Shown here one piece after another: positions 23,896 through 64,000 of a DNA stretch of 64,000 nucleotides. Position numbers and translations under genes: made by a program. The DNA is taken from positions 926,964-990,963 of the forward strand of contig NC_027865.1 in assembly GCF_000187245.1 (NCBI RefSeq), in the 5' to 3' direction. The notes below the pieces were generated by a model. The model ran no database searches. It was not told where the DNA came from and saw nothing but the letters and a program-made list of their open reading frames with translations. Within the stretch, counting starts at the first letter, position 1. The number at the start of each line of letters is the position of its first letter. The DNA is from Ogataea parapolymorpha DL-1. Taxonomy: Eukaryota; Ascomycota; Pichiomycetes; Pichiales; Pichiaceae.

Positions 23896-23918
23896 TGGTA
23901 GCCACATACTCTGTGGAG
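23896..23918. promoter_or_regulatory. Sulfur-type promoter element upstream of JLP1-like gene
   Basis: TGGTAGCCACA at 23896-23906 is the reverse complement of TGTGGCTACCA, found upstream of three other genes here; a second TGTGGAG follows at 23912-23918. The TGTGG core matches the Met31/Met32 site core. It lies 59 bp before the ATG, with a TATA-like ATATAAAA just downstream. Confidence 0.55.
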
Positions 23919-23964
23919 TAATATAAAAGCGGTGGCTGCTCTAATTCGAAACCAACATCAAAAA

Positions 23965-25254
23965 ATGTCTTCTACCACAACACTCAAACTCCAGGCTATT
24001 CCAGTTGATAAGGAAATTGAGAATCTTATCAGATCTTCCAAGGAGATCGCTATTGGTCTCAATGCAAATGACACTCGTCACTTTGGACCTGATCCTGACG
24101 GATTGAAGATTCTTCCTGAATCCACTAGAAAGCGTCTTGTTGATGCTGGCATTGACATTTCTGAGGGCTACCCTTCGAGACCAGACAAGTCTCTTATTCC
24201 AGTCTATGTCGACGAGGCTGCTGCAATCCGTGACGACGATTACGAGTACGTTGAGCGTGCCAAGAGAGCCGACCCTGAGAAGAAGGCTCTTCTTGGTGCT
24301 GCCAAACAGGTGATTCACTTGACCAACCACATCGGTACCGAGATTGTTGGTTTGCAACTTGAGGACCTGACTGACCAGCAAAAAGACGAGCTGGCCTTGT
24401 TGGTTGCTGAGAGAGTTGTTGTTTTCTTCAGAGACCAGAAACTCTCCCCTCAAAAGCAATTGGAGCTTGGTGAGTACTGGGGACGTGTTGAGAAGCACCC
24501 TCAAGCTTCCCAGGTGAACGGCTTGCCAGGTGTTTCTGTTATCTGGCAAGACTACTTCCAGAAGTCCCTTGGCGTTGGTCTGACTTTCAAGAACAACAAC
24601 CTGGGTAACTTTGATGCTACCAAGAATGCCGTTAGAGGTACTCAGGTCTGGCACACTGACTTGGTGCATGAGAAGCGTCCAGCTGGGCTGACTCACTTGC
24701 ATTTGGATGCCATCCCTGAGTTTGGTGGTGACACCCTGTGGGCATCTGGTTATGCTGCTTACGACAAGCTGTCTGAGGAGTTCAAGAAATTCCTTGACGG
24801 CAAACAAGCTGTCTACGTTTCTGCTCACGGATACTTGGACAGAAAGAATCCATTCTCTGGTCCAAAGAAAATTGAGAGAGTTCACCCTATCATCAGAACT
24901 CACCCAGCTACCGGTTGGAAGTCCTTGTTTGTGAACAGAGGAATGACCAAGAGAATTGTTGGTCTCTCTTCTGTTGAGTCTGACTTGATCCTGAACTACT
25001 TGTTTGAAGTTTTCGAGAAGAACGCAGACATTCAGGTCAGATTCAAGTGGACTCCTTCCAAGCCAGGCTACGGTACCTCTGCTATCTGGGACAACAGAGT
25101 GTCTCAGCACAGATCTACTTGGGACCACGAGGGCAAGGAGTCTCGTCACGGAACTAGAGTCACCTCTTTGGCTGAACTGCCATACTTTGACCCAGAGTCA
25201 AAGTCTCAAAGAGAGGCTCTTGGATTGCCATTGGACGAAAAGGATTTCTTCTAA
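23965..25254 (+). CDS. JLP1: Fe(II)/2-oxoglutarate sulfonate dioxygenase, Jlp1/TauD-like
   Basis: Encodes 429 aa from the ATG at 23965 (the frame extends upstream only to a GTG). TauD-type enzymes oxidise the carbon next to a sulfonate, releasing sulfite for assimilation; S. cerevisiae Jlp1 does this for sulfonates and sulfate esters. The metal triad is His230-x-Asp232 (VWHTD) and His395 (SRHGTR), with the 2-oxoglutarate arginine in HGTRVTSLAE. Length is close to that of Jlp1. Codon choice is strikingly biased (GGT, GCT, AAG, AAC, TTG, GTT), unlike most genes in the accessory half, suggesting very high induced expression. The promoter carries the shared TGTGGC-type element. The actual sulfonate range is unknown. 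Confidence 0.88.
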   Translation: MSSTTTLKLQAIPVDKEIENLIRSSKEIAIGLNANDTRHFGPDPDGLKILPESTRKRLVDAGIDISEGYPSRPDKSLIPVYVDEAAAIRDDDYEYVERAKRADPEKKALLGAAKQVIHLTNHIGTEIVGLQLEDLTDQQKDELALLVAERVVVFFRDQKLSPQKQLELGEYWGRVEKHPQASQVNGLPGVSVIWQDYFQKSLGVGLTFKNNNLGNFDATKNAVRGTQVWHTDLVHEKRPAGLTHLHLDAIPEFGGDTLWASGYAAYDKLSEEFKKFLDGKQAVYVSAHGYLDRKNPFSGPKKIERVHPIIRTHPATGWKSLFVNRGMTKRIVGLSSVESDLILNYLFEVFEKNADIQVRFKWTPSKPGYGTSAIWDNRVSQHRSTWDHEGKESRHGTRVTSLAELPYFDPESKSQREALGLPLDEKDFF

Positions 25255-25539
25255 GCTTTGTGCGTAGTGAGGTAAGATTTGTAATCTGAAAAAAATGAAT
25301 GCAACCAATACACAATAATATGTGAATTAGTAATACCAGCCAGTTGAGGCTTTCTGATTAGGCAGCTCTTGAGGCAGCTCTTGATAGCTGCCACAGGCAG
25401 GGTTGCATACTGATGCAGTTTTTCTTAAACAGTGGTTTCTGTGGCTACCATTGTGGCTCGCAGGCTTTGCGGCTCAGAAGCCATAACTAATTTTTTTTGC
25501 AACTAGATAAAGGGTGAATGATCTGTCTGTTGATCCAGC
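25255..25539. promoter_or_regulatory. Promoter region of ACS permease with TGTGGCTACCA
   Basis: TGTGGCTACCA lies at 25440-25450, 89 bp before the permease ATG, with another TGTGGC at 25452-25457 and an inverted GCCACA at 25390-25395. A near match to AAACTGTGG (AAACAGTGG) starts near 25427. A 12-bp unit is repeated in tandem at 25361-25384. Confidence 0.5.
25361..25384 (+). repeat. Two perfect tandem copies of GGCAGCTCTTGA
   Basis: The 12-bp unit occurs at 25361-25372 and again at 25373-25384, followed by an inverted AGCTGCC. It looks like a small replication-slippage duplication in the promoter; no function is implied. Confidence 0.8.
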
Positions 25540-27066
25540 ATGTCCATCAAAAAAGACGACTTCGTTACCACCAGTGAACTTGACAGCGCTAGCTCTCAGA
25601 AGATTGACTTGTCTGTTGACAAGCCTCTCTCCAGAAAGGACAGACTTTTGTCCCTTATTTGGGACGGCTACAAAAAAGACCCGAGGGAGCAACGCTTCTT
25701 GTTGAAGCTGGACTTCTTCCTGATGTCCAGTTCCATGCTGGGATACTTTATCAAGAATTTGAACCAGTCGAATGTGACCACCGCCTACGTTAATGGTATG
25801 AAGGAGTACTATACCATGGACAAGAACCAGTATAACTACATGATCACTCTGTGGACCGTTGGATACACCGTTGGTGCCATTCCATCCAACATTATTCTAC
25901 ACAGAGTTTCTGCTCGTTACTACCTCGGAGGACTGGAGCTTATTTGGTCCGCGCTGACCCTTTTGATGGTTGCGTGCGGACCAGAAAAAATCAACGGTAT
26001 CTACGCCCTCCGGTTCTTAATGGGATTCTTGGAGGCAGGATACTTCCCTGGTCTGGAATATCTGCTTGGTTCGTGGTACAGTCCAAGTGAACTTTCGAAA
26101 AGATCGTCCTACTTTGCGTGCTCCGGTATTGCTGCCAGTATGATTTCCGGCCCTCTTCAGGAAGCTATCTTGAGAGGCTTTTCAAAGTCCAAGTTGCAGC
26201 CATTTAAGTGGATGTTTGTGTTTGACGCCGTGATTTCGATTCCGGTTGGAATCTACACCATGTTTGTGGACCCTAACACTCCTTCCACGACAACTGCATT
26301 CTACTTGAACGAGACAGACAAACAGGTTGCAGTGGAAAGACGTCGCCAGGTGAAGGCCGAGCTCAAGACCAGACACAGGTACAGCTGGGCTCGTCTCAAG
26401 GAGTTCTTTGGAACCTGGCACATCTACGTGTTCCCAGTTCTGTTTTTGTGCTACAACAACACCTGTGCTGCCATCAGTCAGCCTACATTCACCACCTGGA
26501 TGAAACAAGACCTCAAGTTGCCATCCAGCCAATATAACACTTATCCGTCCATCTTGTATGGTGCTGGTATTGGGCTTACCTTGGTGTTCTCGCACGTGCA
26601 CGATTACTTTGGTGGAACTTATAACTACGTTCTGGTTGGCCTCTACTTTGTGCTAATGATCATCGGCAGCTCCATGCTGGCAGCGTGGGACATTGCGCGT
26701 CCTGCTCATTGGGCAGCTTACTTTATTGTCGGTATACCGACCGCTTGGGGACAGCCTCAGATTTTCTCGTGGGTGAACCGGCTGCTATTCGGCAACGATA
26801 TGAAGAGAAACTTCACAGTGGTGTGCACCAACACTCTGGCGTACGTGACGGCTGCTTGGGTGCCTATTCTCGTTTGGAATGCTCAGGACGCCCCAAGATA
26901 CCCGATCGGTTTTAGATATAACGCCGGCCTGGCAAGTCTGGGACTTGTGATGACAATTACTGCCTGGTTCCTCACCAGGAGAGACGCTAAGAGAAAGGCG
27001 TTGCTGGAGGCACAGCAAGACGAAGTTGAAGCCGCTGCCCACTTCGTCTCGTCAAGCTCCCTTTAA
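25540..27066 (+). CDS. MFS permease, anion:cation symporter (Dal5/Seo1-like) family
   Basis: Encodes 508 aa with about 12 membrane segments and a large central cytosolic loop (about 250-290). Family marks: the first-segment motif [18 protein letters not shown], the R-F-x-x-G-x-x-E-A helix [14 protein letters not shown], and a hydrophilic C-terminus. The Dal5 family imports organic anions and amides such as allantoate, pantothenate, nicotinate and sulfur compounds. It lies between JLP1-like and flavin-monooxygenase genes on the same strand and carries the same promoter element, so uptake of a sulfur source is the favoured role. Codon bias is nearly as strong as in the JLP1-like gene. Confidence 0.85.
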
Positions 27067-27514
27067 AAATACTATTTAACGCTATAGAGTCGACTGACCT
27101 AGATCGAGCGAAATAAAAATAGACTAGTGCTGTCTGAAGTAACTGAAAACGCTAATTGAAGACCTTGTATGAGGAGCTGAGGTGCTCAGGTCAAAGCTGG
27201 ACTACGGTTGACCGGGTGCGTACGCTTAGCCAAATGGGGATGGAATTAATAAGCTGCAATATGACTGGTCGTCCACAGCTGTCATTCACGCTCACGTGCG
27301 ATTGTTCGTGCTTGACACCCACAGCGTGCATGAAATGCATGGGGAAATTATATCCCTTTCCATGGCGCAACTCCTGCATTGCAAATACCGATTGATACAG
27401 ATCACGTGACATATAAGATTATTGCTGTTGGTGGTAGCCACAGATCCATAACCTGATTTGTGGAGAGCCACTGTATGTATATATATTGAAGAGCTAGATT
27501 TCTCATTGTAAGGC
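27067..27514. promoter_or_regulatory. FMO promoter with Cbf1-type and Met31/32-type sites
   Basis: This 448-bp non-coding spacer holds CACGTG at 27293-27298, a full ATCACGTGA at 27401-27409 (Cbf1 consensus RTCACGTG), TGGTAGCCACA at 27432-27442 and TGTGGAG at 27459-27465. Together they reproduce the site combination known at S. cerevisiae MET promoters. A TATA-like stretch lies near 27475. Confidence 0.6.
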
Positions 27515-29056
27515 ATGACAAACTCGATAAATAAAGTGGCTATCATTGGTGGAGGTGCTGGAGGACTTGTCACGTTGAACGAGTTTCTTCATACGTCGAA
27601 GTCAGGTAGATCCACAATCACCAAAGACGAAGAGCACCATGAGCTTCCGGACGAGCCTGCTTTCGAGGAGATTGTGGTTTTCGAACAAAACGATTCTATT
27701 GGTGGAGTCTGGAACTACACCAAAAAGGCTGACGAGGGCTTCCCCACAGATGTTGAGAACTACTATTCTCCTCTAGGGATTCGTCCACCAAGGGATCCTC
27801 CAACCGATCTGGAGAACACAGACAGCACAAAGCCGGTCGAAGTTGAAGCCAAGCAGACTCATAGATGGAATACGAGTGGCGTGTATGACGGGCTGTACAC
27901 AAACGTTCCAATCCCGGTCATGAGGTTCTCCTCAGGTCCACCGGTGAAAAGTGGTGTCGATTGCGATTTCCATCCGTTTGTGATGCACCATCATGTGTTG
28001 GATTATCTCAAAGATTTTGCCAGGATCAACGATCTAGAGAAGTACATCAGATTCAACTCGTCGATCGAGCAGATGTACAAGGATGAGGCTTCTGGCAAGT
28101 GGGTTTTGACTGTCGTCAACACTGAGAACGGCGTGGAAAGATGGTATCGAGAGACATTTGACGCGGTCGTCGTTGCTGTTGGGAAGTTCAATATTCCATA
28201 CTTCCCCAAGATCCCCGGACTTCCCGAATATTCCAGTAGAAACGGCAATGTCAGACATGCAAAGAGCTACAGAAATGCCAGAGACTATAAGGATAAGAAG
28301 GTGTTGATTGTTGGAAGCAACGTGAGTGCCGTTGACATGATGCAATACCTTGTGCCTGTGTGCAAGGAAATACACGTGAGCATGAACGTGTCAAGGATTG
28401 AGGACTTCAACCTCGAGAAGAGTCCTGCCAAAAATTGGATAGAAGAAGTGCTCAAGAATCCAGAATTTGGCATTAAGCTACACCCGAAAATACACCACTT
28501 TTCCCAGACTTATGTCAGGTTCCATGACGGAAAACAAGAGCATTTTGATGAGGTGATTCTGGCTACTGGATACCACACCTACTATCCGTTTTTGAATGTG
28601 CCTCAGAACGAGGGAAAAGAATACGCAAAGATACTTCCAAGCTCCGAGAAGGACAGAGAAGGACAGCTGAACATAGTGCGGAACCTATACCTATATACTT
28701 TTGCAGTTGGTGATCCTACATTATGCCATATAGGACTTCCAATGACGCCCCTGTTTTTCCTACTCTCTGAAGTCAGTGCAATAGCAATAGCAGGTGTTTG
28801 GACCAACGCTAAGAAACTTCCTCCGCCTGAGAAGCAACGGGAATGGATCGAACACTACGAGGAACTGAAGAGGAATGGTGCTTCTTTATTGATGCCGGAC
28901 TTTGCTCTGAATCTCTACAACGAAATCCACAGCTATAGTCCTAAAGATAGGTACAACTTTTTTGATACGAATGGCAGTGTCGACATAGCTGCCATTAAAA
29001 AGGCCTCTAGAGAATACTTCTACAAAGTTATATCTGGGAAACTCCAGCCAGTGTGA
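27515..29056 (+). CDS. Flavin-containing monooxygenase (FMO family)
   Basis: Encodes 513 aa. The FAD-binding glycine motif is VAIIGGGAGGL (8-18), followed by a flavin-linked FEQNDSIGGVWNY (about 68-80, the GGVW block of FMOs). The NADPH-binding motif is VLIVGSNVSAVDM (about 265-277), preceded by an FMO-identifying-like histidine segment HAKSYRN; the C-terminal ATGY motif is VILATGYHTYYPF. FMOs oxygenate soft nucleophiles such as thiols, sulfides and amines. Yeast Fmo1 acts on biological thiols, but this protein is longer and differs in the second nucleotide motif. The promoter with Cbf1- and Met31/32-type sites suggests a place in sulfur acquisition. Confidence 0.87.
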   Translation: MTNSINKVAIIGGGAGGLVTLNEFLHTSKSGRSTITKDEEHHELPDEPAFEEIVVFEQNDSIGGVWNYTKKADEGFPTDVENYYSPLGIRPPRDPPTDLENTDSTKPVEVEAKQTHRWNTSGVYDGLYTNVPIPVMRFSSGPPVKSGVDCDFHPFVMHHHVLDYLKDFARINDLEKYIRFNSSIEQMYKDEASGKWVLTVVNTENGVERWYRETFDAVVVAVGKFNIPYFPKIPGLPEYSSRNGNVRHAKSYRNARDYKDKKVLIVGSNVSAVDMMQYLVPVCKEIHVSMNVSRIEDFNLEKSPAKNWIEEVLKNPEFGIKLHPKIHHFSQTYVRFHDGKQEHFDEVILATGYHTYYPFLNVPQNEGKEYAKILPSSEKDREGQLNIVRNLYLYTFAVGDPTLCHIGLPMTPLFFLLSEVSAIAIAGVWTNAKKLPPPEKQREWIEHYEELKRNGASLLMPDFALNLYNEIHSYSPKDRYNFFDTNGSVDIAAIKKASREYFYKVISGKLQPV

Positions 29057-30719: not shown

Positions 30720-33230
30720 ATGAGCACATTTGACGTGGATGACATATTGAGCCAATTACATGTGAAAGAAAAGGTCCAGCTACTTTCATTGAAAGATTTC
30801 TGGCACACAGCAAACATCGATCGGCTGAACATCCCCTCTGTCAGACTCAGCGATGGTCCTAACGGTGTGAGAGGAACCAAGTTTTTCAGATCCGTGCCCT
30901 CCGCTTGCTTCAGTTCTGGCACTGCCCTGGCAGCGACCTTTAACATGCCACTTCTGGAGCAATTAGGCAAATTAATGGCCGAAGAAGCTCGTCACAAGGG
31001 TGCCCATGTTATTCTGGGACCAACTTGTAATATTGCTAGGGGACCTTTGGGGGGTCGGGGTTTTGAATCCTTCAGCGAAGATCCATATCTTTCCGGAATT
31101 GCTGCAGCAGCAATTATCAAAGGTATTGAATCACAGGGCATTGGAGCTACTCTCAAACATTTCGTTTGTAACGATCTTGAGGACGAGAGAAACTCAATTG
31201 ACGTGATACTTTCGGATCGAGCATTGAGAGAGATTTATTTGCTACCGTTCCAGATTGCAATTAAGGAAGCCAATCCCAAATGTGTTATGAGCTCATACAA
31301 CAAGGTGATGGGAGAGCATGTTTCGCAGTCAAAAAAGCTTCTTACCGACATCCTTCGAAAAGAATGGGGATGGGATGGTCTTACCATGTCTGACTGGTTT
31401 GGAGTCTACTCCATCAAAAGCTCCTTGGACGCTGGACTAGATCTTGAGTGTCCCGGGTATCCTCTCATGCGTAAACACGACGCTTTAATACATGCGATAT
31501 CTTCAAGAGAAATCAACATGGACGTGATTGATATTCGTGTTAGAAATATTTTGAAGCTTGTTCAACATGCCTTGAAGTCCAGCATACCGCAAAATGCTCC
31601 TGAAGATTCTGAGAACAACACTCCTGAGACCTCTGCTTTGTTGAGAAAAGCAGCTTCCGAAGCTATCGTCTTGCTAAAAAATGAAAGTTCGATCCTGCCA
31701 CTCAAGCCTTCGGATGAAATTGCTGTTATTGGACCAAATGCAAGAATCCCACGAATGTATGGAGGAGGGTCAGCCTCGGTCAATTGTTATTATGGGATTT
31801 CTGTTTATGATGGAATCTCGAATAAAATTGGCTCGCAGCCGCCATACTCTATGGGATGTGACATTGCTCGCAATATGTTTGATTTGGGTAAATTGGCTTC
31901 ATACAAGGGAGAACCAGGAGTGCGGATCAAGGTATACAAGGAAGCTCCTGGTACACCTGACCGGAGCCTTATTGAAGAGTTCAGATATGACTCCTTGCAA
32001 CTACTGCTGTTCGACTACAATCACGAAAAGCTTGACTCTTCACTATTTTATTTTGACATTGAAGGAGAATTCACTTCTGATAAGGATATGAGTTACGATA
32101 TACATTTATCCTGTTTGGGAACAGCATTGCTTTACATCAATGGGGAGTTATTTATTGATGATAAAACCAATCAAAAGATGGGCTTTGCTGCCATTGGTGC
32201 TAGCTCACTAGGTGACACCAAGACAATCCACATGAAAAAGGATGAAAGAATTGAATTCAAAATTGAGTTTGGGTCCGCTCCAACTTTCACCTTGGAGACG
32301 CTGGATTTAGTAGCCTCAAACGGAGGTGGATCACTTACGGTCGCTATCGGGGAAAAAATTACAGATCAAAACAGAATCAATGACGCTGTGGAGCTTGCAA
32401 AGACAGCGGACAAAGTGATTCTTTGTGTTGGGACTTCCAGTGATTGGGAAAGTGAGGGTTTCGACCGACCACATATGGACTTGCCCAAATCTCAAGGCAT
32501 CCTTATCGAGGAGATTCTGAAGGTTAACAAAAATATCATTCTGGTAAACTTATCAGGTACCCCAGTCACTCTCCCATGGATAGATGAAATTCCAGCTGTT
32601 GTTCATGGCTGGTTCAATGGTATGGAGTCCGGAAATGCTATGGCGGATGTTCTCTATGGGGACGTAAATGCATCTGGTAAACTATCTCTTTCTTGGCCAA
32701 AACGATGCGAAGACAACCCATCATTCTTGAATTTCAAATCTGACAAGGGAAAAGTGGTTTATGGCGAGGATGTCTTTGTTGGGTACCGCTATTACGAAAA
32801 AGTTTGCCGCGAGCCTCTTTTTGCATTTGGTTACGGATTATCCTACACAGCTTTCAATTTTGATGGCCTGGATGTAAAGGTAGCAGCGGACAACTTGGTT
32901 TGCACCTTGAATATCAAAAATATTGGCAAATTGAGGGGGGCTGAAGTTGTACAGTTGTACGTGATTCCCCCTTTGACCACCACTACTGTCTCTCGCCCAC
33001 TGAAGGAGTTTAAAGGCTGTCAAAAGGTGTTCTTGGAACCTGGCCAAAAGATCACAACTACCATTTCCGTCCCAATCAAGTACGCCTGCTCTTATTTTGA
33101 TGTAGAGAGACAAAAATGGTCGATTGAAAGCGGAGAATATGGCGTGTTTATTGGAAACTCCTCTGATGCTATGGATGCCCTCATTGGAAAGTTTGTTATT
33201 CAGAAGCCTCTGCTCTGGAGTGGTCTTTAG
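30720..33230 (+). CDS. Glycoside hydrolase family 3 beta-glucosidase with PA14 insert
   Basis: Encodes 836 aa. Order: GH3 N-terminal barrel (about 1-300) with SVRLSDGPNGVRG, LKHFVCNDLEDER and the nucleophile Asp225 in LTMSDWFG; a GH3 C-terminal sandwich starting near 320 (EAIVLLKNE, VIGPNA); an inserted PA14 domain (about 390-530); and a fibronectin-III-like tail (about 690-830). This matches the Kluyveromyces-type intracellular beta-glucosidase. No signal peptide is present, so an imported glycoside or disaccharide is the likely substrate. No TGTGGC-type site lies near the start, unlike the flanking sulfur-type genes. Confidence 0.92.
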   Translation: MSTFDVDDILSQLHVKEKVQLLSLKDFWHTANIDRLNIPSVRLSDGPNGVRGTKFFRSVPSACFSSGTALAATFNMPLLEQLGKLMAEEARHKGAHVILGPTCNIARGPLGGRGFESFSEDPYLSGIAAAAIIKGIESQGIGATLKHFVCNDLEDERNSIDVILSDRALREIYLLPFQIAIKEANPKCVMSSYNKVMGEHVSQSKKLLTDILRKEWGWDGLTMSDWFGVYSIKSSLDAGLDLECPGYPLMRKHDALIHAISSREINMDVIDIRVRNILKLVQHALKSSIPQNAPEDSENNTPETSALLRKAASEAIVLLKNESSILPLKPSDEIAVIGPNARIPRMYGGGSASVNCYYGISVYDGISNKIGSQPPYSMGCDIARNMFDLGKLASYKGEPGVRIKVYKEAPGTPDRSLIEEFRYDSLQLLLFDYNHEKLDSSLFYFDIEGEFTSDKDMSYDIHLSCLGTALLYINGELFIDDKTNQKMGFAAIGASSLGDTKTIHMKKDERIEFKIEFGSAPTFTLETLDLVASNGGGSLTVAIGEKITDQNRINDAVELAKTADKVILCVGTSSDWESEGFDRPHMDLPKSQGILIEEILKVNKNIILVNLSGTPVTLPWIDEIPAVVHGWFNGMESGNAMADVLYGDVNASGKLSLSWPKRCEDNPSFLNFKSDKGKVVYGEDVFVGYRYYEKVCREPLFAFGYGLSYTAFNFDGLDVKVAADNLVCTLNIKNIGKLRGAEVVQLYVIPPLTTTTVSRPLKEFKGCQKVFLEPGQKITTTISVPIKYACSYFDVERQKWSIESGEYGVFIGNSSDAMDALIGKFVIQKPLLWSGL

Positions 33231-41807: not shown

Positions 41808-42701
41808 CTATTCATGATAAGAAGTCATGGATTTTAGAGCTCCCGCAGACAGCCGAACCTCAAGTTCGTAATCGCTACAAAAAGACGCATAAAGGTTCGC
41901 AGAGGTGGCTGTTATACTGTAGGTGAAGGATGCCTCTTTATCGGGGATGACAATTCTGTCATACAGTCCCGAGGCGTAGACCGAGTCTGTCTTGATCTGG
42001 GTCTCACATATTTTGTCCATCAAGCACAGCAAATAACAGGCTTCACCAACAATGGACCCGGCTGTGATGAGTCCATGATTTTGTAAGATCAGAGCTCTAT
42101 TGGTAGGCCCGAAAGCCTTGGCAATGTTTTCTCCCTCTTCCGTTTCCACTGCCACCCCGCCAAAGTTCCGATAGACATCGTGGTTGTTATAGAAAATACA
42201 TGCGTCTTGATTCAGCATGTCGAGTCTGCGTCCCAGTGCAGAAAACGCTTTTCCCCAGACAGAATGAACATGGCATGCAACGTTTAAATCTGGCCGCGCC
42301 TTGTGAACAGCAGAGTGAATCTTGAAGCCAGCAAGATTGATTGGAGCTTTGTTTCCGCCAACATAATTACCGTGCTCGTCAACTCTTACCATGTCTTCAG
42401 CAGTCAGAAGAGAGAAATGAACTCCAAGGGGATTTATCCAAAACGTTCTTGGCTCAATTGGATCTCTAACGGATATATGACCTGCAGGGCCTTCGTTGAA
42501 GCCTTTTCTCGCGAATATCCTGAAGGCGCCAGCCATCTGGTTCAACAACCAGTCTCTCTTGATGTGAGGATCTTTGATCTCTGGTACCCGATACGGATAT
42601 TCAAAGTCCCCCATAGCAATGGCGGTCGAATGCTCAGAAGTTTGGAGCTGAAGTGAAACAGAGCGTGAGGAATTGTTTGTTGTTTCAATAGTGGTGGTCA
42701 T
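41808..42701 (-). CDS. Class II aldolase/adducin-domain protein
   Basis: Encodes 297 aa. The fold's zinc histidines are His144 and His146 (ACHVHSVWG) and His209 (LQNHGLITAG), and GPAGHISVRD is the family's substrate loop. The usual catalytic glutamate in the P-S-S-E segment is replaced: the equivalent here reads NLAGFKIHSAVHKARPD. That variant looks typical of a fungal subfamily whose reaction is unknown, so it may be an epimerase- or decarboxylase-like or non-aldolase enzyme. A TAGCCACA lies about 310 bp upstream. It precedes the Zn2Cys6 gene on the same strand by 61 bp. Confidence 0.82.
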   Translation of the reverse strand: MTTTIETTNNSSRSVSLQLQTSEHSTAIAMGDFEYPYRVPEIKDPHIKRDWLLNQMAGAFRIFARKGFNEGPAGHISVRDPIEPRTFWINPLGVHFSLLTAEDMVRVDEHGNYVGGNKAPINLAGFKIHSAVHKARPDLNVACHVHSVWGKAFSALGRRLDMLNQDACIFYNNHDVYRNFGGVAVETEEGENIAKAFGPTNRALILQNHGLITAGSIVGEACYLLCLMDKICETQIKTDSVYASGLYDRIVIPDKEASFTYSITATSANLYASFCSDYELEVRLSAGALKSMTSYHE

Positions 42702-48262: not shown

Positions 48263-48319
48263 GGGTACTTCTCATTTAAATACAGCGTTGAATCATATAG
48301 AGTGGAAAGTTTAGTATCA

Positions 48320-55942: not shown

Positions 55943-57382
55943 ATGACTAAGTCACTTATTATCACTGCTTTTATCACTGGAGGAACCACTGAGTGGCGTT
56001 ATCCGGGAGATACTTCGTATAGGTTTGCTTCCGATTTGGATGCCTGGGTGGAAATAGCAAAGCTATTGGAGAAGGGCAAAATCTATGCCCTGTTCATTGC
56101 AGACCACTTAACCCTATTTGATGTCTACAAGGGCCCGAACAACTATAGGGACGCAGTGAAGACCGGACTGAATGTTCCAAAGGCTGATCCAAGCCATGCA
56201 ATTATCACTGCTGCAAGGGAAACAAAAAACATATCTTTTGGAGTCACTTTCAGCACTGTCAGTGAACACCCATACCTGTTTGCTAGAAGGCTTGCAACTC
56301 TTGATCATTTCACCAAAGGTAGAGTGGGATGGAATGTTGTTACATCTTATCTCAACAGTATCGGCACCCAGCTTCTAAATGGAGAACCATTTCCTGAGCA
56401 TGACGAACGGTATAATAGGGCAACTGAGTACGTCGATGTCGTGACTGGCCTTCTCTTATCTACTTGGAGAGATGACGCTCTGATTCGCGACACGGAAACC
56501 GGTGTGTTCATTGATCCAGATAGAGTTCGCGAGATCAACCATAATGGAAAGTACTTCAAAGTTGCCGGACCAGCTATCACACAGCCCTCAGTTCAAAGGA
56601 TCCCGCTCTTGATTCAAGCAGGAACATCAAAAAAGGGCCAGGAGCTGGCTGCCGAGTTTGCAGAGTTTGTGTACGTCTTGGGTGGGACTGAAGAGCTGGC
56701 TCCGAAGATCAAGTACATCAGAACAATTGCAAAGGAGAAATTTGGTCGAGACCCCAAAAACATCAAGGTGATTTACTCTGCTAGAGTGATACTGGGCCGC
56801 ACTCATGAGGAAGCTGTTGAAAAAGAGGCATCTTACAAAAAGTATGAGGTGCCAGATCGGAATGCAGTGAACTTTGGAGGTGTGACTGGTATTGACTTGA
56901 ACGAATATGATAGCGAAGAGGAGATTGACACTAAAAACGTCAATGGTGTTAAAACCACTGCTGAAGTCTACTTCAAAAAAGCAAAAAGACCAACCAAGAA
57001 TGCGCTTCTGAATAAGGCTCCTGGCGTTGGACCATTAACTGGCACTCCTGAAGAGGTTGCCGATAAGCTCGAAAAGTTGGTTGAGGAGCTTGACCTTGAT
57101 GGCTTCAATTTTAACTCTGCTGTTCTTCCTGCATCTGTTGAAGACTTGGTTGAGCTGCTAATTCCCGAACTCCAAAGAAGAGGTCTATTTTGGGAAGACT
57201 ATGCTGTTCCTGGAGGCACGTTCCGGGAGAACGTGTATGGGGTCAAGGGACAAACATTCCTTCCTCCAGATCATCCATTGTATGAGACACGGTGGACGCC
57301 GGACGTTGACAAGGAGGAATTTGACAAAATTTTTGAGCAAAATCTAGAGAGACGTAAACAAGCTAGAGCATCTTTGAATTAA
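55943..57382 (+). CDS. FMN-dependent monooxygenase, NtaA/SnaA/DszA (luciferase-like) family
   Basis: Encodes 479 aa. The luciferase-like barrel shows ALFIADHLTLFD (about 49-60), TLDHFTKGRVGWNVVTSYL (about 118-136), the family block ERYNRATEYVDVVTGLL and PLLIQAGTSKKGQELAAEFAEFVYV (about 222-246). NtaA, SnaA and DszA use FMNH2 from a separate reductase to break C-N or C-S bonds; DszA acts on dibenzothiophene sulfone. Such enzymes are common in bacteria and scattered in fungi, so horizontal origin is plausible. No flavin reductase domain is fused. Promoter TGTGG sites and the divergent ACS permease favour a sulfur or amine source. Confidence 0.9.
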   Translation: MTKSLIITAFITGGTTEWRYPGDTSYRFASDLDAWVEIAKLLEKGKIYALFIADHLTLFDVYKGPNNYRDAVKTGLNVPKADPSHAIITAARETKNISFGVTFSTVSEHPYLFARRLATLDHFTKGRVGWNVVTSYLNSIGTQLLNGEPFPEHDERYNRATEYVDVVTGLLLSTWRDDALIRDTETGVFIDPDRVREINHNGKYFKVAGPAITQPSVQRIPLLIQAGTSKKGQELAAEFAEFVYVLGGTEELAPKIKYIRTIAKEKFGRDPKNIKVIYSARVILGRTHEEAVEKEASYKKYEVPDRNAVNFGGVTGIDLNEYDSEEEIDTKNVNGVKTTAEVYFKKAKRPTKNALLNKAPGVGPLTGTPEEVADKLEKLVEELDLDGFNFNSAVLPASVEDLVELLIPELQRRGLFWEDYAVPGGTFRENVYGVKGQTFLPPDHPLYETRWTPDVDKEEFDKIFEQNLERRKQARASLN

Positions 57383-58784
57383 AACGTTCTTCTTTTTCTG
57401 AGTATTTGTAGAAGGTTAAAGCTTGTATATGTAATAGTTAGTCTTGAAGAATAAATCTCAATTTTCCAAGGCTGTAAGGGTTTAGTTGTTGATACCAGAT
57501 AATTGTATGATTTTCTCCTATGCCTGAAGTTTCCGAGTACGTGGCTGAGAATTTCATGTAGCCTTCAACTTCTGAAACGTATTTGCAATGGGAAATAGTC
57601 GTGTCCTTGGATAAGCTCTCATGTCACTCTTGCTAACAAATCTTCAACTTCATAATCTTGAAACTTGATACCACCAATATAGACATGATTCGTGTACTGG
57701 TGACCTCACCCCAAGATTCTCCTTGTTTGGGAAAACTAACACGGAGATAGGGAAACATTATGATTGTATGAGAGGCTTGAATGCATTTAACGATCCAAGC
57801 GAGTGGGAATACGAATCTGAGAAATTGATCTGATACCCAGTGATAGCCGTATTGTTTCTATAAATTGTTCAAAAAGAGGCAGCAGTATCTCAACAAGCTG
57901 AAAGATACAGGGCAAAAATAGAGTCGTTTAAGGTTCCGGCAATGCAGACCCATTTATCACATCACAACATTAGCATTGATGGTTCTCAAAAACATGCTTA
58001 TCGTGCTTGAAGTAGATCCTTGGCCATATGACACACTTTTCTTTTTCAGAGGATTTTTGATTGTTCTTTGAGATATGGAAATCTATGTTATCCTGGAGTT
58101 TAAACGTAATTGACATCAATTGACCAGTGTATCGAAGGGGAAAATGGGTATATCTTCGGCAAGATAGTGATGGCTCCACAGAAAGTGAACTTTCTTTGCT
58201 CTTGAACTTACGATTTTTTAACGTCAGGAAAACCATGTATCTGGGTTGCGGTATTGGCAGAATAAGTACAGTGTAAATCATGAAGTTGTAACCACTTGAT
58301 TCCACAAACTTATGCTAATTGTGGGTTCTAGCAAGAACCTATACCACGGTCAGCGCACCACCATAACTTCTTGGCTGACAGAACTTGCCAATACTCCTCC
58401 GGCATCTTAGCTTCAACGTTTTGAGCCCAGAGTTTGATACATCCCTGTTAAAATATTGTGCTCAAATTGATGAAAAAGATAACGAGTGCAAAGTATCGAA
58501 GATAATTTTGTTCTGGCCTGCAGTCCACTCTATAATTTCTCACCACCCGGCAAACCTATACTAGTACTAGCATACTTAGTTATAGATCTGTTTGTATCGT
58601 CAACATTTTGCCGTGCCGAGGTGCTTCAAAAATTGCCTCTGTACCCGGGATTTCGATGCCACAGTGCGGCTTGTTTCTCTTGCCACAATTGATAAGAATT
58701 TCTGTGTCGTGCCACATTTAGGATATATAAATCAGACAATACTCATAAAAACTGCCAAATCTCAATCACCGAGAAACGATTGCC
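57383..58784. other. 1.4-kb spacer; GCCACA cluster before FAD monooxygenase B
   Basis: The only long frame (57970-58305, minus) has no recognisable family and its first ATG is at 58281; I do not call it. Near the downstream gene there are three GCCACA sites at 58658-58663, 58682-58687 and 58711-58716, followed by a TATATAA box near 58724. The rest shows nothing I can name. Confidence 0.5.
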
Positions 58785-60041
58785 ATGACAGCCGAGGAAG
58801 AGGTCAAACCACTTAAAATTGCAATTATTGGCGGTGGACTGGTGGGAGCATTTGCTGCAGTTACCTTGTCCAGGCTACCAAATGTTTCGGTTACTGCGTA
58901 CGAAAAGAGCGACAAGGTTCGTGAGGTTGGAGCAGCCATCACTCTTACCGAGGGAGGCCTTGTGACTCTTGAACAGGTTTTCGATCTGGATGAGCTAGAA
59001 AAAATACTTTATAGAACCCCCAATAACGGGCATATCACTAGACGTCATTGGAAAACTGGGGAATACCTCAATGAGCCTCACTCGAAGTCACCAAAGTATC
59101 CCAAATACAACCACGCCAAGGCACAGAGAGTTCTTTTGCTGGACTTCATTTTGAAACATGTTCCCGAAGGAACCATTAAGTACGGCCAAGAGGTGAAAAG
59201 CGTTAATGTGAGACAAGATGGTGTTGCCATCCATTTTGCAAATGGGAATGTGACAAAAGCTGACCTGGTGATTGCTGCTGATGGCATATACTCAAAAATT
59301 CGTCGCCAATTCACCAATGATGCCATCGTCTACAAGGGAGCAGTTGCATATAGGAATGTTTTTGACGATAAAATCGTGGAACATATTCCTGGATTGCCAG
59401 ATGATGTTACAGTCTGGATTGGCAAGGGATCTGCTATGTTTATGACTAGACTAACGCCTGGAAAGTTCAACGTTGCAGCCCACTTGAGAGACCCACCAGA
59501 AGTTGCTGCCAACCTGCGGTGGAACAAGACCACAGGTGATTGGGGTAAGAAGCGCTTGATTGAGCACTTCAAAGACTGGGATCCACTTATCGGTCAGATT
59601 CTTGAAGTTATGCCGGAGTCGATTGCTTTCCCGCTGGAACGGGCACCTTGGCTGGAGAACCTGGTTGTTGGAGACCGGATTGCGTTTGTCGGCGATGCTG
59701 CTCATCCAACCTCCGGTGTTTACGGGGCTGGTGCAAATATGGGATTTGATGATGTCTGGGCCTTGTACAGGTCCTTGTTGGAGACCAAGTATAATTTGAA
59801 AAAAGCTTTGTTTCTTTTCAATGAGACCAGAGCCCCATTTTTGAAGCGCGTTGAAAAACAAATTGAAATAGATCAACAAATTGGTGCCAAATACATCGGC
59901 ACTGCCGAAACTGATGAGGAGTGGAAAAGAAGAGTGGAGCATAGGGGTCTGTCAGCAAAGTGGATCACCGACCATAGTGTGGACAATGAGTTCGAGCAGG
60001 TTAGAGATCAAAACTTCCTACAGCTATTTGTAGATGAATAA
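58785..60041 (+). CDS. FAD-dependent aromatic-type monooxygenase, copy B
   Basis: Encodes 418 aa, a paralogue of the product of 52450-53736. FAD motif IAIIGGGLVGAFAA (10-23), DG motif VIAADGIYSKIRRQF, GD motif IAFVGDAAHPTSGVYGAGANMGFDDVW. The two copies diverge most between about 70 and 105 and at the C-terminus, so they may differ in substrate. Unlike copy A, this gene has three GCCACA sites within 130 bp of its ATG. It lies head-on against the IPNS-like oxygenase gene, 56 bp between stops. The reaction is a group A flavin hydroxylation; substrate is not determinable. Confidence 0.87.
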   Translation: MTAEEEVKPLKIAIIGGGLVGAFAAVTLSRLPNVSVTAYEKSDKVREVGAAITLTEGGLVTLEQVFDLDELEKILYRTPNNGHITRRHWKTGEYLNEPHSKSPKYPKYNHAKAQRVLLLDFILKHVPEGTIKYGQEVKSVNVRQDGVAIHFANGNVTKADLVIAADGIYSKIRRQFTNDAIVYKGAVAYRNVFDDKIVEHIPGLPDDVTVWIGKGSAMFMTRLTPGKFNVAAHLRDPPEVAANLRWNKTTGDWGKKRLIEHFKDWDPLIGQILEVMPESIAFPLERAPWLENLVVGDRIAFVGDAAHPTSGVYGAGANMGFDDVWALYRSLLETKYNLKKALFLFNETRAPFLKRVEKQIEIDQQIGAKYIGTAETDEEWKRRVEHRGLSAKWITDHSVDNEFEQVRDQNFLQLFVDE

Positions 60042-60097: not shown

Positions 60098-61198
60098 TTA
60101 GGCATCGACAGTTTCGCCAATAAGGGATCCAAGGGACTTTCTGCCCAAAATTGTGATACCCTTTGTTTGGTTCGAGCTTGTGTTGTTGAAAAACGCGCCT
60201 TTTGCAATATCCCACTCGCCTTGAGTTATGCGCTGCAAACTGTTGTCGGCATAAATTCCCAAACGCTTAAGTTTTGGAGAATTCAAGGAATCAGGGTCCA
60301 AATATGTCGCAGAAGTTGGGGTGCAGAAATAAATCGTGCTGGACCGCTTTTGGTGGTTAGGGGGCGAGGCAACTCTGTGGACACTGGATCTGAAGTAATC
60401 ACCGGTCCAAAACTGAAGCGCGTCTCCAACGTTCACGACTAGGGCGCCTTGTTTGTGCTTAACAAATCCCCAAGTGTTTTCAGTATCTGGGAGCCTGATC
60501 TGGAGTGCCTGAACAGGATCGGATAGGATGAATGTTAGTGCACTAGCATCTGTGTGGCCTCGAAGCAGCGTGTTTCCTGTCTTCGAATTATACGAATCAT
60601 CAGCCTCGTGGTATAACAAGAATCTACCGTAACCAGTGGCAGACTCCTTAATGTTATTTTCGACCACCCTAAAGTGGTTGTTGTAAAGCGTTCCGTCAGG
60701 AAGCTCCAGAATGATGTCAATCAACGAGAGCAATTTGCGTAAAACGTTGTTATGAAGCTCATTAAAATAAGAGGTGATCTCAGGCAAGTTTTTCTCAACG
60801 GAAGGAGGATAGCTGGCGGCCTTGACATATTCTGGGTGTGCGAAGTGGCGCAGGTTGAAAAATTCAACTCTATCCTTCTGGTCATTTATGTAAGTCCAGT
60901 AACCTCTTGGCTTGTAACCGCTCCCTCTAACAACACCCAATTGCTTATAGCTCTCTTCTGGTAGATCATTCTGGCCGGCAATGTGCTTAGCTTTCACTTC
61001 ATCTGGCTCTTCAAAGACCTGACGGCCAATTGAGGATAGATGATCGGTCACGAGCCCGTGATTCACAAGCTGGAAAAAACCGTGGTCTGTAAGGGCTTTT
61101 TCAAGACGCTCAGCAAGGGCCTGGCGGACCTCTGGGCCTTCATCAAATAAAGAGAGGTCAATTTCCTCTAATTGCACAATAGGGGTGGAGGACGACAT
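60098..61198 (-). CDS. Isopenicillin-N-synthase-like 2OG-Fe(II) oxygenase
   Basis: Encodes 366 aa. The N-terminal DIOX_N domain has ALTDHGFFQLVNHG (35-48); the double-stranded beta-helix carries His215-x-Asp217 (GHTDASALTF) and His274 (SSVHRVASPP), with the 2-oxoglutarate-binding R-x-S at Arg285/Ser287. These plant- and fungus-type enzymes hydroxylate, desaturate or cyclise small molecules. It is the fourth 2OG oxygenase in the accessory half and the only one of IPNS type. Three TGTGGC/GCCACA sites lie within 80 bp upstream, linking it to the same regulon. Confidence 0.88.
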   Translation of the reverse strand: MSSSTPIVQLEEIDLSLFDEGPEVRQALAERLEKALTDHGFFQLVNHGLVTDHLSSIGRQVFEEPDEVKAKHIAGQNDLPEESYKQLGVVRGSGYKPRGYWTYINDQKDRVEFFNLRHFAHPEYVKAASYPPSVEKNLPEITSYFNELHNNVLRKLLSLIDIILELPDGTLYNNHFRVVENNIKESATGYGRFLLYHEADDSYNSKTGNTLLRGHTDASALTFILSDPVQALQIRLPDTENTWGFVKHKQGALVVNVGDALQFWTGDYFRSSVHRVASPPNHQKRSSTIYFCTPTSATYLDPDSLNSPKLKRLGIYADNSLQRITQGEWDIAKGAFFNNTSSNQTKGITILGRKSLGSLIGETVDA

Positions 61199-61996
61199 GA
61201 TGATAGACGATAATGCTGGAGATTAATATAGAGACTAGCTGTGGCGCGAGTGTGGCAGTAGCAAGTGCGCCACATTGTAACCATCTAACTAAACAGGAAA
61301 CTAGCGCGGGGTTTTGCGAAATGAAGTCCTCGAGAGTCTTGAGTCCACTTCTGCATTTGAACAAGATCTAATAATTAGTGTTTTGAGAAATCCTAGTTGT
61401 TTCGAACCATATTGCCAGTTTATGTTTTTAGTGATTTTTGGGTAACGGATCAAACCGAAACGTACTAAGCAGTCTGATGTCATTAAGGAAGAATTACGTT
61501 CAACAATTAGATGATGTATAAATCTCTATAAAGGTATTAGTATCGGCTCTTAATCGCGTATTCCCCCCGTACGGGAGCCGCGTATCTCCGACAATGCATC
61601 ATGCAGGATCTTATTGTCTGATAAGTTGTGCTTCATAATAACCGACAATCAACTCATAGTCACGCCGATATACGTGAATATGGTCTACTTTCGCCAAAGC
61701 ACGGAATTCGGGCCTGAGTTCATGCTGTAGTCCATTACGGGATCTTCAATGATGATGAATGACTCTTTGGCCCAGGTGATCATGAAGTTTAACCCTAATT
61801 ATTATCGCTTGCTCTTGGTGGTCGAATCGTTCGTGGATGACATGATATTTTTACTTTAGATTGTTTGATAGTGAAAAATATTCTTCTCCAACAGGTGACT
61901 AGTTAGATACGCATCGTTGAATTTTTTCAGATAAGAAAAACAAAACTTTTATTGGATCGATAGAATCTTCCTCAATTATAACCTAGTAGGCCTTCG
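61199..61996. promoter_or_regulatory. IPNS-like gene promoter with TGTGGC cluster and CCCGTACGGG palindrome
   Basis: TGTGGC at 61240-61245 and 61251-61256 and GCCACA at 61269-61274 lie 42-76 bp upstream of the oxygenase ATG. Further away a perfect 10-bp palindrome CCCGTACGGG sits at 61566-61575 in an otherwise AT-rich stretch; CCG/CGG half-sites are typical of Zn2Cys6 dimers. CGACAAT is repeated and inverted around 61588-61650. No gene is seen. Confidence 0.5.
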
Positions 61997-63610
61997 TCAC
62001 TTCTCACTAGGGGAAATAGACTCCCTGTGCACGTGAACATCATTTTCAGCCCCTTCTGGAATTTCACCAGTTTTGCTATTGTAAATATAGATACCATTTT
62101 CAATAGCGTGCTCCCGCTCCTCCTTTTTGTAAAAGAAGTAGTCAATGGATAGCAAAAAGATGAAACCGATACTGAACACAGCACATGTTGTGAAACCTTT
62201 TTCAAATCTTGGACTGTCAACAGTTGGCCAGATTAACCTGTTAATCCACACACTAGACTGCAAGCCCATAATATAGATTATCATCCACGCAATGGCTCTG
62301 ACATTGTTGTCCCTGCGGAAAAGATCACTCACCAGCGGATTGAACACTGACGATTGCGACCAAGACCAGTATGCAAAACAGAACGCAAACCATTTGGCAC
62401 CGTAAGACACATCCCATACCGCAAGTATCACATTGCCAATAAATGTCATAAGGAACGAAAACATGATAAAGAGATACCGCTTTCCAGTAAGGTCCGCACC
62501 ACCACATATGATGAAAACGTACAGAATTCCAAGTGCAGGTGGAATTGTTGACCAGTTATTGATTTTACCAATGTCAATATTAAGCGATTTGAGCCACAAA
62601 GTGAAAGTTCCAGCAGAAGTGTTGTTGGTGTTGAATCCCATCATGTTTGCAATACCCAAAATGTAAACGTGTGGGCTTTTAAGTGCCTTGGACCAGCTTT
62701 CCTTGGAAAAGAAACTGCTGATCTCTTGTCTTGGATCTGTGCCGTTTTCCTTCATGCGCTTACGGGCTAGCTTAATCTCATCGTCGGACAAAAAGATTGA
62801 GTAACAGTGGGTAGGTGTGCCCGGGAGAGAAAAAAGAGCTAGAATGGCAACAGCAAAAGAGATACACCCGTCAATAATGAACATCCAACGCCATCCAGCA
62901 AGGTTGTGGTGACCATCAAGGTTTCTGAAGGCAGCCGATTGAAGCAGTCCGGATGTAAGGACTCCCAGAAACTGTCCTGCGTAGAAAAGCGCACCCCTTC
63001 TGCCCACTTCGGTAGGTTTGTACCAACTGGCAAGAGTGTAGTGGATACATGGGAAATAGGCAGCCTCAAAGGCTCCAACAAAAAAGCGCATAGCCTGCAA
63101 AGAACTCACATTGTTGACTCTGTATGTTCCTAGAGTGAAAGCTGCCCACCCAAACTCAGAAATAAATAGTGCATAGTTGATTGGCACTCTAGGCAGCAAA
63201 TACAGCCAAGGAAGCTCCAGTAAAATATTTCCTATGTTGAAGATTAACTGGGTATTGATAAGATCATTGCCTTTCATACCAAGGTCCTCCTTCATGTTCG
63301 AAACATAGGCATTGTTGAGATTGGAACTGTCAATGTACTTGATCCAGTAGCCGACAAAAGAGTAGAAGGCAATTAGAATGTCCAGCTTGCACAGAAGCTT
63401 CACTTCCTGGGCAGAAGTCCCCTCTGGGAACCATCTGTACCACTTCCGGCGAGAAGCTTCTTCACTGGACTGACGATACTCGAACTCATCAAAGAATTTC
63501 CACCATGGACGGTTAGCTTCGTCGCGGTAGGTGTACGTGATAGGCTCAGAGGAGGAATCTAAAGATTCCTTTTCATCCTCCACATGGCGAAGGCGTGGTA
63601 GAAAACTCAT
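61997..63610 (-). CDS. MFS permease, ACS/Dal5-like family
   Basis: Encodes 537 aa with 12 membrane segments after a charged N-terminal stretch of about 75 residues. Blocks: GYWIKYIDSSNLNNAYVSN, MRFFVGAFEAAYFPCIHYTL, SWYKPTEVGRRGALFYAGQ and LAGWRWMFIIDGCIS. It is closest in style to the Seo1/Fen2 branch. Its promoter holds GCCACA at 63656-63661 and CTGTGGC at 63667-63673, within 65 bp of the ATG. It follows the IPNS-like gene on the same strand. It may import an organosulfur compound or a pantothenate-like acid. Confidence 0.86.
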   Translation of the reverse strand: MSFLPRLRHVEDEKESLDSSSEPITYTYRDEANRPWWKFFDEFEYRQSSEEASRRKWYRWFPEGTSAQEVKLLCKLDILIAFYSFVGYWIKYIDSSNLNNAYVSNMKEDLGMKGNDLINTQLIFNIGNILLELPWLYLLPRVPINYALFISEFGWAAFTLGTYRVNNVSSLQAMRFFVGAFEAAYFPCIHYTLASWYKPTEVGRRGALFYAGQFLGVLTSGLLQSAAFRNLDGHHNLAGWRWMFIIDGCISFAVAILALFSLPGTPTHCYSIFLSDDEIKLARKRMKENGTDPRQEISSFFSKESWSKALKSPHVYILGIANMMGFNTNNTSAGTFTLWLKSLNIDIGKINNWSTIPPALGILYVFIICGGADLTGKRYLFIMFSFLMTFIGNVILAVWDVSYGAKWFAFCFAYWSWSQSSVFNPLVSDLFRRDNNVRAIAWMIIYIMGLQSSVWINRLIWPTVDSPRFEKGFTTCAVFSIGFIFLLSIDYFFYKKEEREHAIENGIYIYNSKTGEIPEGAENDVHVHRESISPSEK

Positions 63611-64000
63611 AGATGAATACGGGCCACTAACGGGCTATAAGTAGTTCGCCTTGAAGCCACAATTGGCTGTGGCTGCGTGGATTTAAAGAAACGGACTAAA
63701 AAATTTTTAGACAAATTAGGACTTCCGGGGCTACTAACTGCAATTCATAATGATAATTGGGGCGTTCTCGAGGATCTAGCCGAAAATCAATATGCAACTT
63801 GAATAATAATGCTCAGCAAATTTATCTTTGGGCGCTGGGAAAAAGTGTGGAATGCTAAGTGCGGCTATCGCTTAAATTTCCTATCCAAGAAACAAGGTTT
63901 CGAATCGAACACATTATTGTTTTCGAAATGATTGAGGCTGCAATCTGGTGACGACATGTGGCAATTGAGATATTCATAACGAGGCAGTGGGTTTGCACTG
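63611..64000. promoter_or_regulatory. Permease promoter and end of window
   Basis: GCCACA at 63656-63661 and CTGTGGC at 63667-63673 flank a short AATTG. Beyond about 63700 the sequence is AT-rich with no supported gene. No telomeric repeats are present, so the chromosome end, if near, lies outside the window. Confidence 0.45.

Follow-up and report, generated by a model that had tools for sequence, protein, structure and literature searches.

Two putative organosulfur gene blocks with a common promoter motif at a contig end of Ogataea parapolymorpha DL-1

The end of contig NC_027865.1 of the yeast Ogataea parapolymorpha DL-1 carries a succession of oxygenase, flavin-enzyme and permease genes, which raises the question of whether they constitute one system for the use of organic sulfur. 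A preliminary description, made from the sequence alone, had considered 40 kb of this DNA as a single subtelomere-like organosulfur scavenging island. The window analysed here is a stretch of 64,000 nucleotides covering bases 926,964-990,963 of the 990,963-base contig, in a genome of 8.87 Mb in 7 contigs; its 3′ end is therefore the contig end, in agreement with the subtelomere-like position. The sequence GGGTGGCG, which we take to be the Ogataea telomere unit, was not found in the last 3 kb of the window, so that the assembly may end before the telomere.

The enzyme families named in the preliminary description are all found by Pfam and NCBIfam profile searches: three TauD-family proteins, one DIOX_N/2OG-FeII_Oxy protein, one NtaA/DmoA-type and one FMO-type monooxygenase, two FAD_binding_3 proteins, four MFS_1 permeases, and one member each of the MDR, Gfo/Idh and PALP families. 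They do not form one 40-kb unit. The segment between 29 and 43 kb is nearly devoid of the hexamer TGTGGC and carries genes of carbon and nitrogen use; as six unrelated genes, left out of that description, intervene there and only one of them has TGTGGC upstream, we distinguish two blocks (block 1, 23.9-29.1 kb; block 2, 43.9-63.6 kb) with 15 genes together. Gene content, promoter motif and published parallels make organosulfur scavenging the best reading of these two blocks, not of the whole interval. They are probably a physically clustered regulon for alternative, organic sulfur sources under control of the Met4/Met32 type, from which the middle genes are excluded.

TGTGGC upstream of the genes of the two blocks

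TGTGGC is the core of the Met31/Met32 site. Enriched 6-mers were searched de novo, no motif being supplied, in 6.6 kb of intergenic DNA from both blocks against 34 kb of intergenic DNA from the window core and other stretches of the same genome. GCCACA/TGTGGC ranked first among the 1,820 strand-collapsed 6-mers present (24 sites versus 1.66 expected, P ~6e-20). This background omitted two cluster regions on C6 and at the left of C2 (see below), together with the DNA preceding one C3 TauD gene. These regions amount to 4.6 kb and contain 11 sites; when they were restored the hexamer still ranked first (24 versus 3.35 expected, P ~3e-13). Shuffling the block DNA 500 times gave 2.62 ± 1.55 sites with a maximum of 9. 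The sites are close to genes, 22 of the 24 lying at most 250 bp from a start codon, and the signal has a sharp boundary: TGTGGC is found once in the 4.8 kb of middle-block intergenic DNA. One of the 24 sites (43012) is located between the middle block and block 2, closer to the aldolase gene of the former.

The same result was obtained at the level of genes, using 159 mechanically called open reading frames (ORFs) of at least 120 amino acids in 264 kb. TGTGGC precedes 13 of the 15 sulfur-block genes as compared to 9 of 129 other ORFs (Fisher P 4e-11), counts that are not fully independent because a divergent promoter scores for both of its genes. It precedes one of the six middle genes (P 0.0055), which had been separated as "not obviously sulfur" by their Pfam content prior to the motif counts. 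Counting the paralogous clusters among the other ORFs gives 13/15 versus 18/138 (P 7e-9). The features of the two blocks and of the gene at their inner boundary are as follows (genes are designated by their first coordinate; amino acids, aa; 2-oxoglutarate, 2OG; flavin adenine dinucleotide, FAD; flavin mononucleotide, FMN; pyridoxal phosphate, PLP).

22412..23836, plus strand: boundary gene, fungal transcription-factor-like protein of 474 aa; no TGTGGC upstream
23860..23906, minus strand: two TGTGGC sites upstream of 23965 (-105, -64)
23965..25254, plus strand: TauD/Jlp1-type 2OG-Fe dioxygenase (Pfam TauD, 184.8 bits)
25390..25457, unstranded: three TGTGGC sites upstream of 25540
25540..27066, plus strand: MFS permease (MFS_1, 109 bits)
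27401..27442, unstranded: ATCACGTG (27401) and TGTGGC (27437) upstream of 27515
27515..29056, plus strand: FMO-type flavin monooxygenase (PF00743, 92.5 bits)
43690..43760, plus strand: two TGTGGC sites upstream of 43881
43881..45629, plus strand: MFS permease (MFS_1, 72 bits)
45831..47048, plus strand: TauD/Jlp1-type 2OG-Fe dioxygenase (TauD, 172 bits); ATCACGTG at 45678, no TGTGGC
47068..48147, minus strand: Gfo/Idh/MocA dehydrogenase
48320..49504, plus strand: clavaminate-synthase-like TauD-family oxygenase (TauD, 77 bits, weaker than the other two)
49628..50710, minus strand: MDR-family zinc-type reductase; TGTGGC at 50813 in a promoter region common with 51312
51312..52340, plus strand: cysteine-synthase-like PLP enzyme (PALP, 222 bits); TGTGGC at -60 and -121
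52450..53736, minus strand: salicylate-hydroxylase-type FAD monooxygenase; no TGTGGC in 334 bp upstream
54071..55555, minus strand: MFS permease (MFS_1, 93.6 bits); one TGTGGC (55701) common with 55943
55943..57382, plus strand: NtaA/DmoA-family FMN-dependent monooxygenase (TIGR03860, 398 bits versus a 279.7 cut-off)
58658..58716, minus strand: three TGTGGC sites upstream of 58785
58785..60041, plus strand: salicylate-hydroxylase-type FAD monooxygenase (FAD_binding_3)
60098..61198, minus strand: isopenicillin-N-synthase-like 2OG-Fe oxygenase (DIOX_N and 2OG-FeII_Oxy)
61240..61274, unstranded: three TGTGGC sites upstream of 60098
61997..63610, minus strand: MFS permease (MFS_1, 102 bits)
63656..63962, unstranded: three TGTGGC sites upstream of 61997, including an inverted pair (63656, 63668)

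The other promoter marks first proposed did not hold. The longer strings are not common features, AAACTGTGGC occurring once in the window (48207) and ATCACGTG in only two promoters of the island (27401, 45678). The 10-mer AAACTGTGGC was discarded as a marker: it is found at 23 places genome-wide versus 25 for its reversed control, so that in its long form it carries no information, the signal residing in the 6-mer core. The Cbf1 site CACGTG is not enriched (2/15 sulfur-block genes versus 12/129 others), by which Cbf1 control of the island was rejected; control of the nitrogen type was rejected likewise, GATAAG being upstream of 5/15 and 33/129, respectively. Close TGTGGC pairs in the same orientation are found at 86 places genome-wide versus 43 for the reversed control, four of them in the sulfur blocks, and inverted pairs at 27 (each counted once) versus 11, with one in the blocks; these statistics are consistent with the proposed regulon, if weakly.

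Predicted enzymes and a possible route for organic sulfur

The products of 23965 and 45831 match PF02668 above its cut-off and retain the HxD motif, the distal His and two Arg, including the 2OG-binding one. Their scores against the NCBIfam taurine dioxygenase equivalog (173 and 155 bits) are under the 313-bit cut-off, so that they are relatives, not equivalogs, of bacterial TauD. In 23965, which matches PlaO1 and TauD in the PDB, residues H230, D232, H382 and R394/R398 are kept in three aligned paralogues, the one of the C6 cluster being 88% identical; the protein may be an alkanesulfonate or sulfate-ester oxygenase. Alignment of 45831 to the PDB TauD superposes the HxD, the distal His and a pocket His, presumably the TauD residue that contacts the sulfonate. 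The third member of the family, 48320, has paralogues in the C6 and left C2 clusters, and H143, E145, H357 and R367 are invariant in three paralogues. It is transcribed divergently from 47068 from a promoter (48148-48319) holding AAACTGTGGC at 48207 plus a second TGTGGC.

The NtaA/DmoA-type enzyme 55943 is the sole PF00296 place found in the genome by profile search and matches LadA and dimethyl-sulfide monooxygenase in the PDB. A role in S-oxygenation is plausible for the FMO-type protein 27515, whose paralogue in the C6 cluster is 57% identical. The best PDB matches of the PALP protein 51312 are cysteine synthase A, and it has two paralogues (45% and 37% identical). The four permeases were placed at superfamily level (MFS_1 above cut-off); 25540 is presumably Dal5/Soa1-like.

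The oxygenase 60098 belongs to a small, yeast-centred family of 59 homologues. H215, D217, H274 and R285 do not vary in an alignment of 31 sequences, made up of the window protein and 30 homologues. Among the 25 homologues with an organism name, 15 are from budding yeasts, six from Microbotryomycetes-type yeasts, three from filamentous ascomycetes and one from a plant. Its structural model (predicted local distance difference test score, pLDDT, 88.5) matches HSL1, thymine hydroxylase, anthocyanidin synthase and isopenicillin N synthase (IPNS) with template modelling scores (TM) of 0.6-0.7 and ~20% identity, which makes it IPNS-like, not IPNS (TM 0.65-0.67 and 17-19% identity to the IPNS fold). 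Identity with IPNS itself was rejected on this distant fold match and on the weak sequence match: the PDB chains named IPNS have E values of 3e-6 to 1e-4 and rank lower than 2OG oxygenases from plants, fungi and bacteria. In the distant yeast Candida metapsilosis, an NtaA homologue (I9W82_002864) and two 60098 homologues (I9W82_002865 and I9W82_002872) have neighbouring locus tags and are assigned to contigs of identical length, by which the linkage of the two genes probably exists there too.

How these proteins might act together can be outlined as follows. Shortage of sulfate, methionine or cysteine would lead Met4/Met32 to act through TGTGGC, mostly 40-250 bp upstream of the starts, and to induce the genes. 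Uptake of sulfonates, sulfate esters or sulfones would fall to Dal5/Soa1-type proton symporters of the MFS. The FMO and the NtaA/DmoA-type monooxygenase would oxidise sulfides and sulfones or cleave C-S bonds with reduced FMN, while the TauD/Jlp1-type dioxygenases would hydroxylate the carbon adjoining sulfur, releasing sulfite (or sulfate) and an aldehyde. Sulfite would enter the ordinary reduction route to cysteine, the sulfide being captured locally by the cysteine-synthase-like enzyme, and the MDR and Gfo/Idh enzymes might process carbonyl by-products.

The two FAD enzymes are 50% identical and both carry FAD_binding_3 with conserved GxGxxG and GD motifs. Salicylate hydroxylase expels CO2 by ipso chemistry. 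The model of 58785 (pLDDT 89.8) has salicylate hydroxylase 6bz5 as its best Foldseek match (TM 0.81), and also matches NicC, TropB and the decarboxylative vanillate and 4-hydroxybenzoate 1-hydroxylases, as well as relatives that do not decarboxylate, among them urate hydroxylase, 3-hydroxybenzoate 6-hydroxylase and the tetracycline destructases. The protein scores 101.5 bits, under the 446-bit cut-off of TIGR03219 (salicylate 1-monooxygenase), and reaches no NCBIfam cut-off among the best 25 of 52 families. Several of its fold matches hydroxylate a ring carbon bearing a leaving group. Aromatic desulfonation by the FAD enzymes can be suggested, speculatively, because these matches attack such carbons: the sulfonate would be swapped for a hydroxyl and sulfite expelled. 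The structural matches of 58785 do not settle this. In the same vein, 60098 would free sulfur from a further class of compounds, e.g., sulfamates or branched sulfate esters. We consider it quite unlikely that 52450, 58785 and 60098 are the missing yeast enzymes for such "orphan" sulfur sources. Desulfurisation of sulfamates and aromatic sulfonates is named as unsolved in fungi (Linder 2018, PMC5857272).

Paralogous clusters, regulation and other readings

Profile search locates PF02668 at nine places in the genome, seven of them within 50 kb of a contig end; at least one probably belongs to the carnitine pathway. Two further groups of such genes, located close to other chromosome ends, resemble the blocks. 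The one at C6:1,482,430-1,492,603 has a TauD, an MFS, a clavaminate-like TauD, an FMO, a Fungal_trans protein and an amino-acid transporter, with TGTGGC in six of six promoters. The other, at C2:43,549-49,916, consists of an MFS, a clavaminate-like TauD and a Zn2Cys6 factor, with TGTGGC at three of three. The borders of both were chosen post hoc with the motif counts already known; the next ORF to the left of the C6 cluster has one TGTGGC and the next to the right none. For the C2 factor the single site falls in the 5′ portion of a DAO-family ORF (C2:46,375-48,156) that overlaps the factor gene in the opposite orientation, is itself without TGTGGC and was scored among the other ORFs.

These clusters are relevant to the identity of the regulator, for TGTGGC could be the site of another factor, e.g., a local one of fungal type, and the cue an aromatic or xenobiotic carbon source or a nitrogen source. 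A gene of this type lies beside each of the three TGTGGC clusters (22412; C6:1488501-1490534; C2:48003-49916, adjoining the marked MFS+TauD pair). No Pfam match, and hence no Zn2Cys6 domain, was found in the 22412 product, which is 28% identical over 443 aa to the Zn2Cys6/Fungal_trans protein of C2; the Zn_clus match is slightly below the Pfam cut-off in the C6 factor and above it in the C2 factor. The 22412 protein is a possible regulator that could act without a DNA-binding domain of its own. The absence of TGTGGC from the core sulfate loci examined (see below) also favours a different factor. On the other hand, the motif is the Met31/32 site core, which in C. parapsilosis accompanies these same families, GATAAG is not enriched, and an enrichment of sulfur motifs has been reported for the promoters of yeast TauD and PF00296 genes (Linder 2012, cited in PMC5857272). 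A regulator and cue unrelated to sulfur are, on balance, distinctly unlikely. A narrower scavenging set, comprising the three TauD-family, the NtaA-type, the FMO and one or two permease genes, is unlikely as well, but deserves more credit. The Gfo/Idh, MDR, cysteine-synthase-like and FAD-hydroxylase genes would then be passengers or serve detoxification, caught in a recombining chromosome end. The middle block shows that unrelated genes interleave here, the FAD gene 52450 is without TGTGGC, and the C6 and left C2 clusters hold just the core set with regulators and a transporter. Against this, the Gfo/Idh, MDR, PALP and one FAD gene have a proximal TGTGGC, although the Gfo/Idh promoter is common with a TauD-family gene and that of MDR and PALP is common to both.

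Base composition could suggest an altogether different origin, a recently acquired foreign (bacterial) island. Near 22.4 kb the G+C content falls from ~0.53 to 0.43 and G+C at third codon positions (GC3) from 0.63 in the gene preceding 22412 to 0.49 in 22412 itself; GC3 ranges over 0.54-0.81 before this point and 0.39-0.61 from it on. Comparable falls are found at the C6 end (0.52 to 0.40-0.45) and, partially, at the C3 end, and two internal stretches go down to 0.44. For the three proteins searched the best homologues are from other Ogataea and yeasts, the closest being 97% (O. angusta) and 93-94% (O. haglerorum) identical, and a scan of bacterial genomes, for which six words were taken from the PALP protein, gave a single relative, 29% identical. 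Foreign origin was rejected on these grounds as extremely improbable.

The Met4/Met32-type organosulfur regulon that we favour has its own difficulties. Two of its 15 genes (45831 and 52450) are without TGTGGC, as is a TauD+MFS pair at C3:1,248,060-1,250,735, and 82 of the 86 same-orientation TGTGGC pairs are outside the blocks. The Pfam results of the 15 genes show no flavin reductase that could partner 55943. The O. parapolymorpha Met4 reportedly acts without DNA-binding cofactors (the title of Yoo 2020). Moreover, seven core sulfur loci (MET3; MET16, 135 bp only; two of three sulfate-transporter places; three of five PF01053 places) have no TGTGGC in the DNA that separates their called start from the next ORF, so that in this genome only the gene families of the island tie the motif to sulfur. 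All these points weigh against the proposal. Farther out, on the other side of the adjacent ORF, MET3 is preceded by a single GCCACA (-238), and two TGTGGC lie within the 5′ part of the C7 sulfate-transporter ORF itself; CACGTG is found at -84 of MET3 and at -145 of one sulfate transporter. This distribution is like that in C. parapsilosis, where a Met32-type motif goes with Met4-controlled organosulfur genes and the Cbf1 motif with Met28-controlled ones (PMC11502921); because Cbf1 sites go with the latter there, CACGTG does not define the organosulfur branch. The O. parapolymorpha Met4 is itself said to control some organic-sulfur enzymes, with SAM2, MET13, MET3 and MET5 among its targets (PMC11502921), the Soa1 orthologue of this yeast carried 15 of 15 sulfur sources tested (PMC5303821), and Met32 of C. 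albicans occupies the JLP11 and JLP12 promoters (PMC13170222).

Relation to known systems and neighbouring genes

Bacterial tau, ssu, dsz and sfn operons bring together TauD and NtaA/DmoA/DszA-type enzymes and uptake in one locus. They have ABC transporters and a dedicated flavin reductase, whereas MFS permeases are found here and no flavin reductase was seen among the 15 genes. The JLP1/SOA1/BDS1/YCT1/HSU1 set of Saccharomyces cerevisiae has, as here, a Jlp1-type dioxygenase and ACS-type transporters, which rise together when sulfur is limited (PMC9757880). Several genes of the set lie near an end of chromosome XII. S. cerevisiae has far fewer enzymes, JLP1 being described as its only alpha-ketoglutarate dioxygenase gene (PMC5857272) as compared to nine PF02668 places here. 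Scheffersomyces (Pichia) stipitis has clustered genes labelled taurine catabolism (IFH2.4-IFH2.3; PMC2784038). These are a two-gene tandem in what is available of that source, as opposed to a multi-enzyme cluster with a common promoter motif. A close parallel is the Met4/Met32 regulon of C. parapsilosis and C. albicans, with the same TauD-type, FMN-dependent monooxygenase and Dal5/Soa1-type MFS families (PMC11502921, PMC13170222) and the same promoter core (CTGTGGY/TGTGGC). That regulon was defined by RNA sequencing and mutants and is described, in the parts available, as a regulon rather than one gene cluster, whereas the present one is known from sequence, has ~15 genes at one chromosome end with no arylsulfatase among the 15, and includes in addition the IPNS-like oxygenase, the FAD hydroxylases and the MDR, Gfo/Idh and PALP proteins.

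The preliminary description held that such a set had, to its author's knowledge, not been described as a unit in yeasts. The kind of system is published (PMC5857272, Linder 2018; PMC11502921, Lombardi 2024; PMC13170222; PMC5303821), and sulfur-limitation markers are known in Pichia pastoris (PMC5504661); no account of this particular cluster was found in the literature searched, and Yoo 2020 or Linder 2012 may hold part of it. As far as that literature shows, the new elements are the compact clustering at a chromosome end, its interruption by an almost unmarked block with a sharp motif boundary, the existence of paralogous clusters that have factor genes beside them, and three oxygenases without an earlier tie to sulfur. 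If the genes are indeed induced as proposed, they would provide a cluster that is compact, can be deleted and lies at a chromosome end of a methylotrophic yeast that is easy to manipulate. This would allow matching enzymes to soil sulfur compounds, a question listed as open (PMC5857272), and would extend to the Pichiaceae the split of C. parapsilosis between Met32-type organosulfur and Cbf1-type sulfate control.

The middle block (29057-42701), almost without TGTGGC, resembles carbon and ureide/hydantoin scavenging genes.

30720..33230, plus strand: GH3 glycosidase (glucosidase); no TGTGGC within 600 bp upstream
34525..36237, plus strand: NCS1 nucleobase/allantoin-type permease; no TGTGGC within 600 bp upstream
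36445..37494, plus strand: SMP30/gluconolactonase-like protein; no TGTGGC in 207 bp upstream
38559..39872, minus strand: hydantoinase/carbamoylase-type M20 amidase (TIGR01879, 362 bits versus a 204 cut-off); no TGTGGC in 181 bp upstream
40054..41379, minus strand: Fungal_trans_2 protein of 441 aa in which Pfam found no Zn2Cys6 domain; no TGTGGC in 428 bp upstream
41808..42701, minus strand: class II aldolase-family protein; one TGTGGC (43012) ~310 bp upstream

This block has a relative at the C6 end too, where a GH3 glycosidase (C6:1504386-1506896) is 65% identical to 30720. Before 22.4 kb the window has 18 ORFs; the eight scanned with Pfam are mostly ordinary core genes, including RRP7, an M24 gene of methionine-aminopeptidase type, a Sec1-family gene and a TIP49 helicase. 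Rfam at gathering thresholds and a repeat search of three stretches gave nothing relevant, and ARAGORN detected no tRNA. Near the left end of C1, a divergent gene pair (C1:14428-17481) has two TGTGGC sites in common and possibly comprises further members of the regulon. A gene ~96% identical over 268 aa is present at C3:1272542-1273366 and at C1:178-996, both chromosome ends, which suggests a recent subtelomeric duplication.

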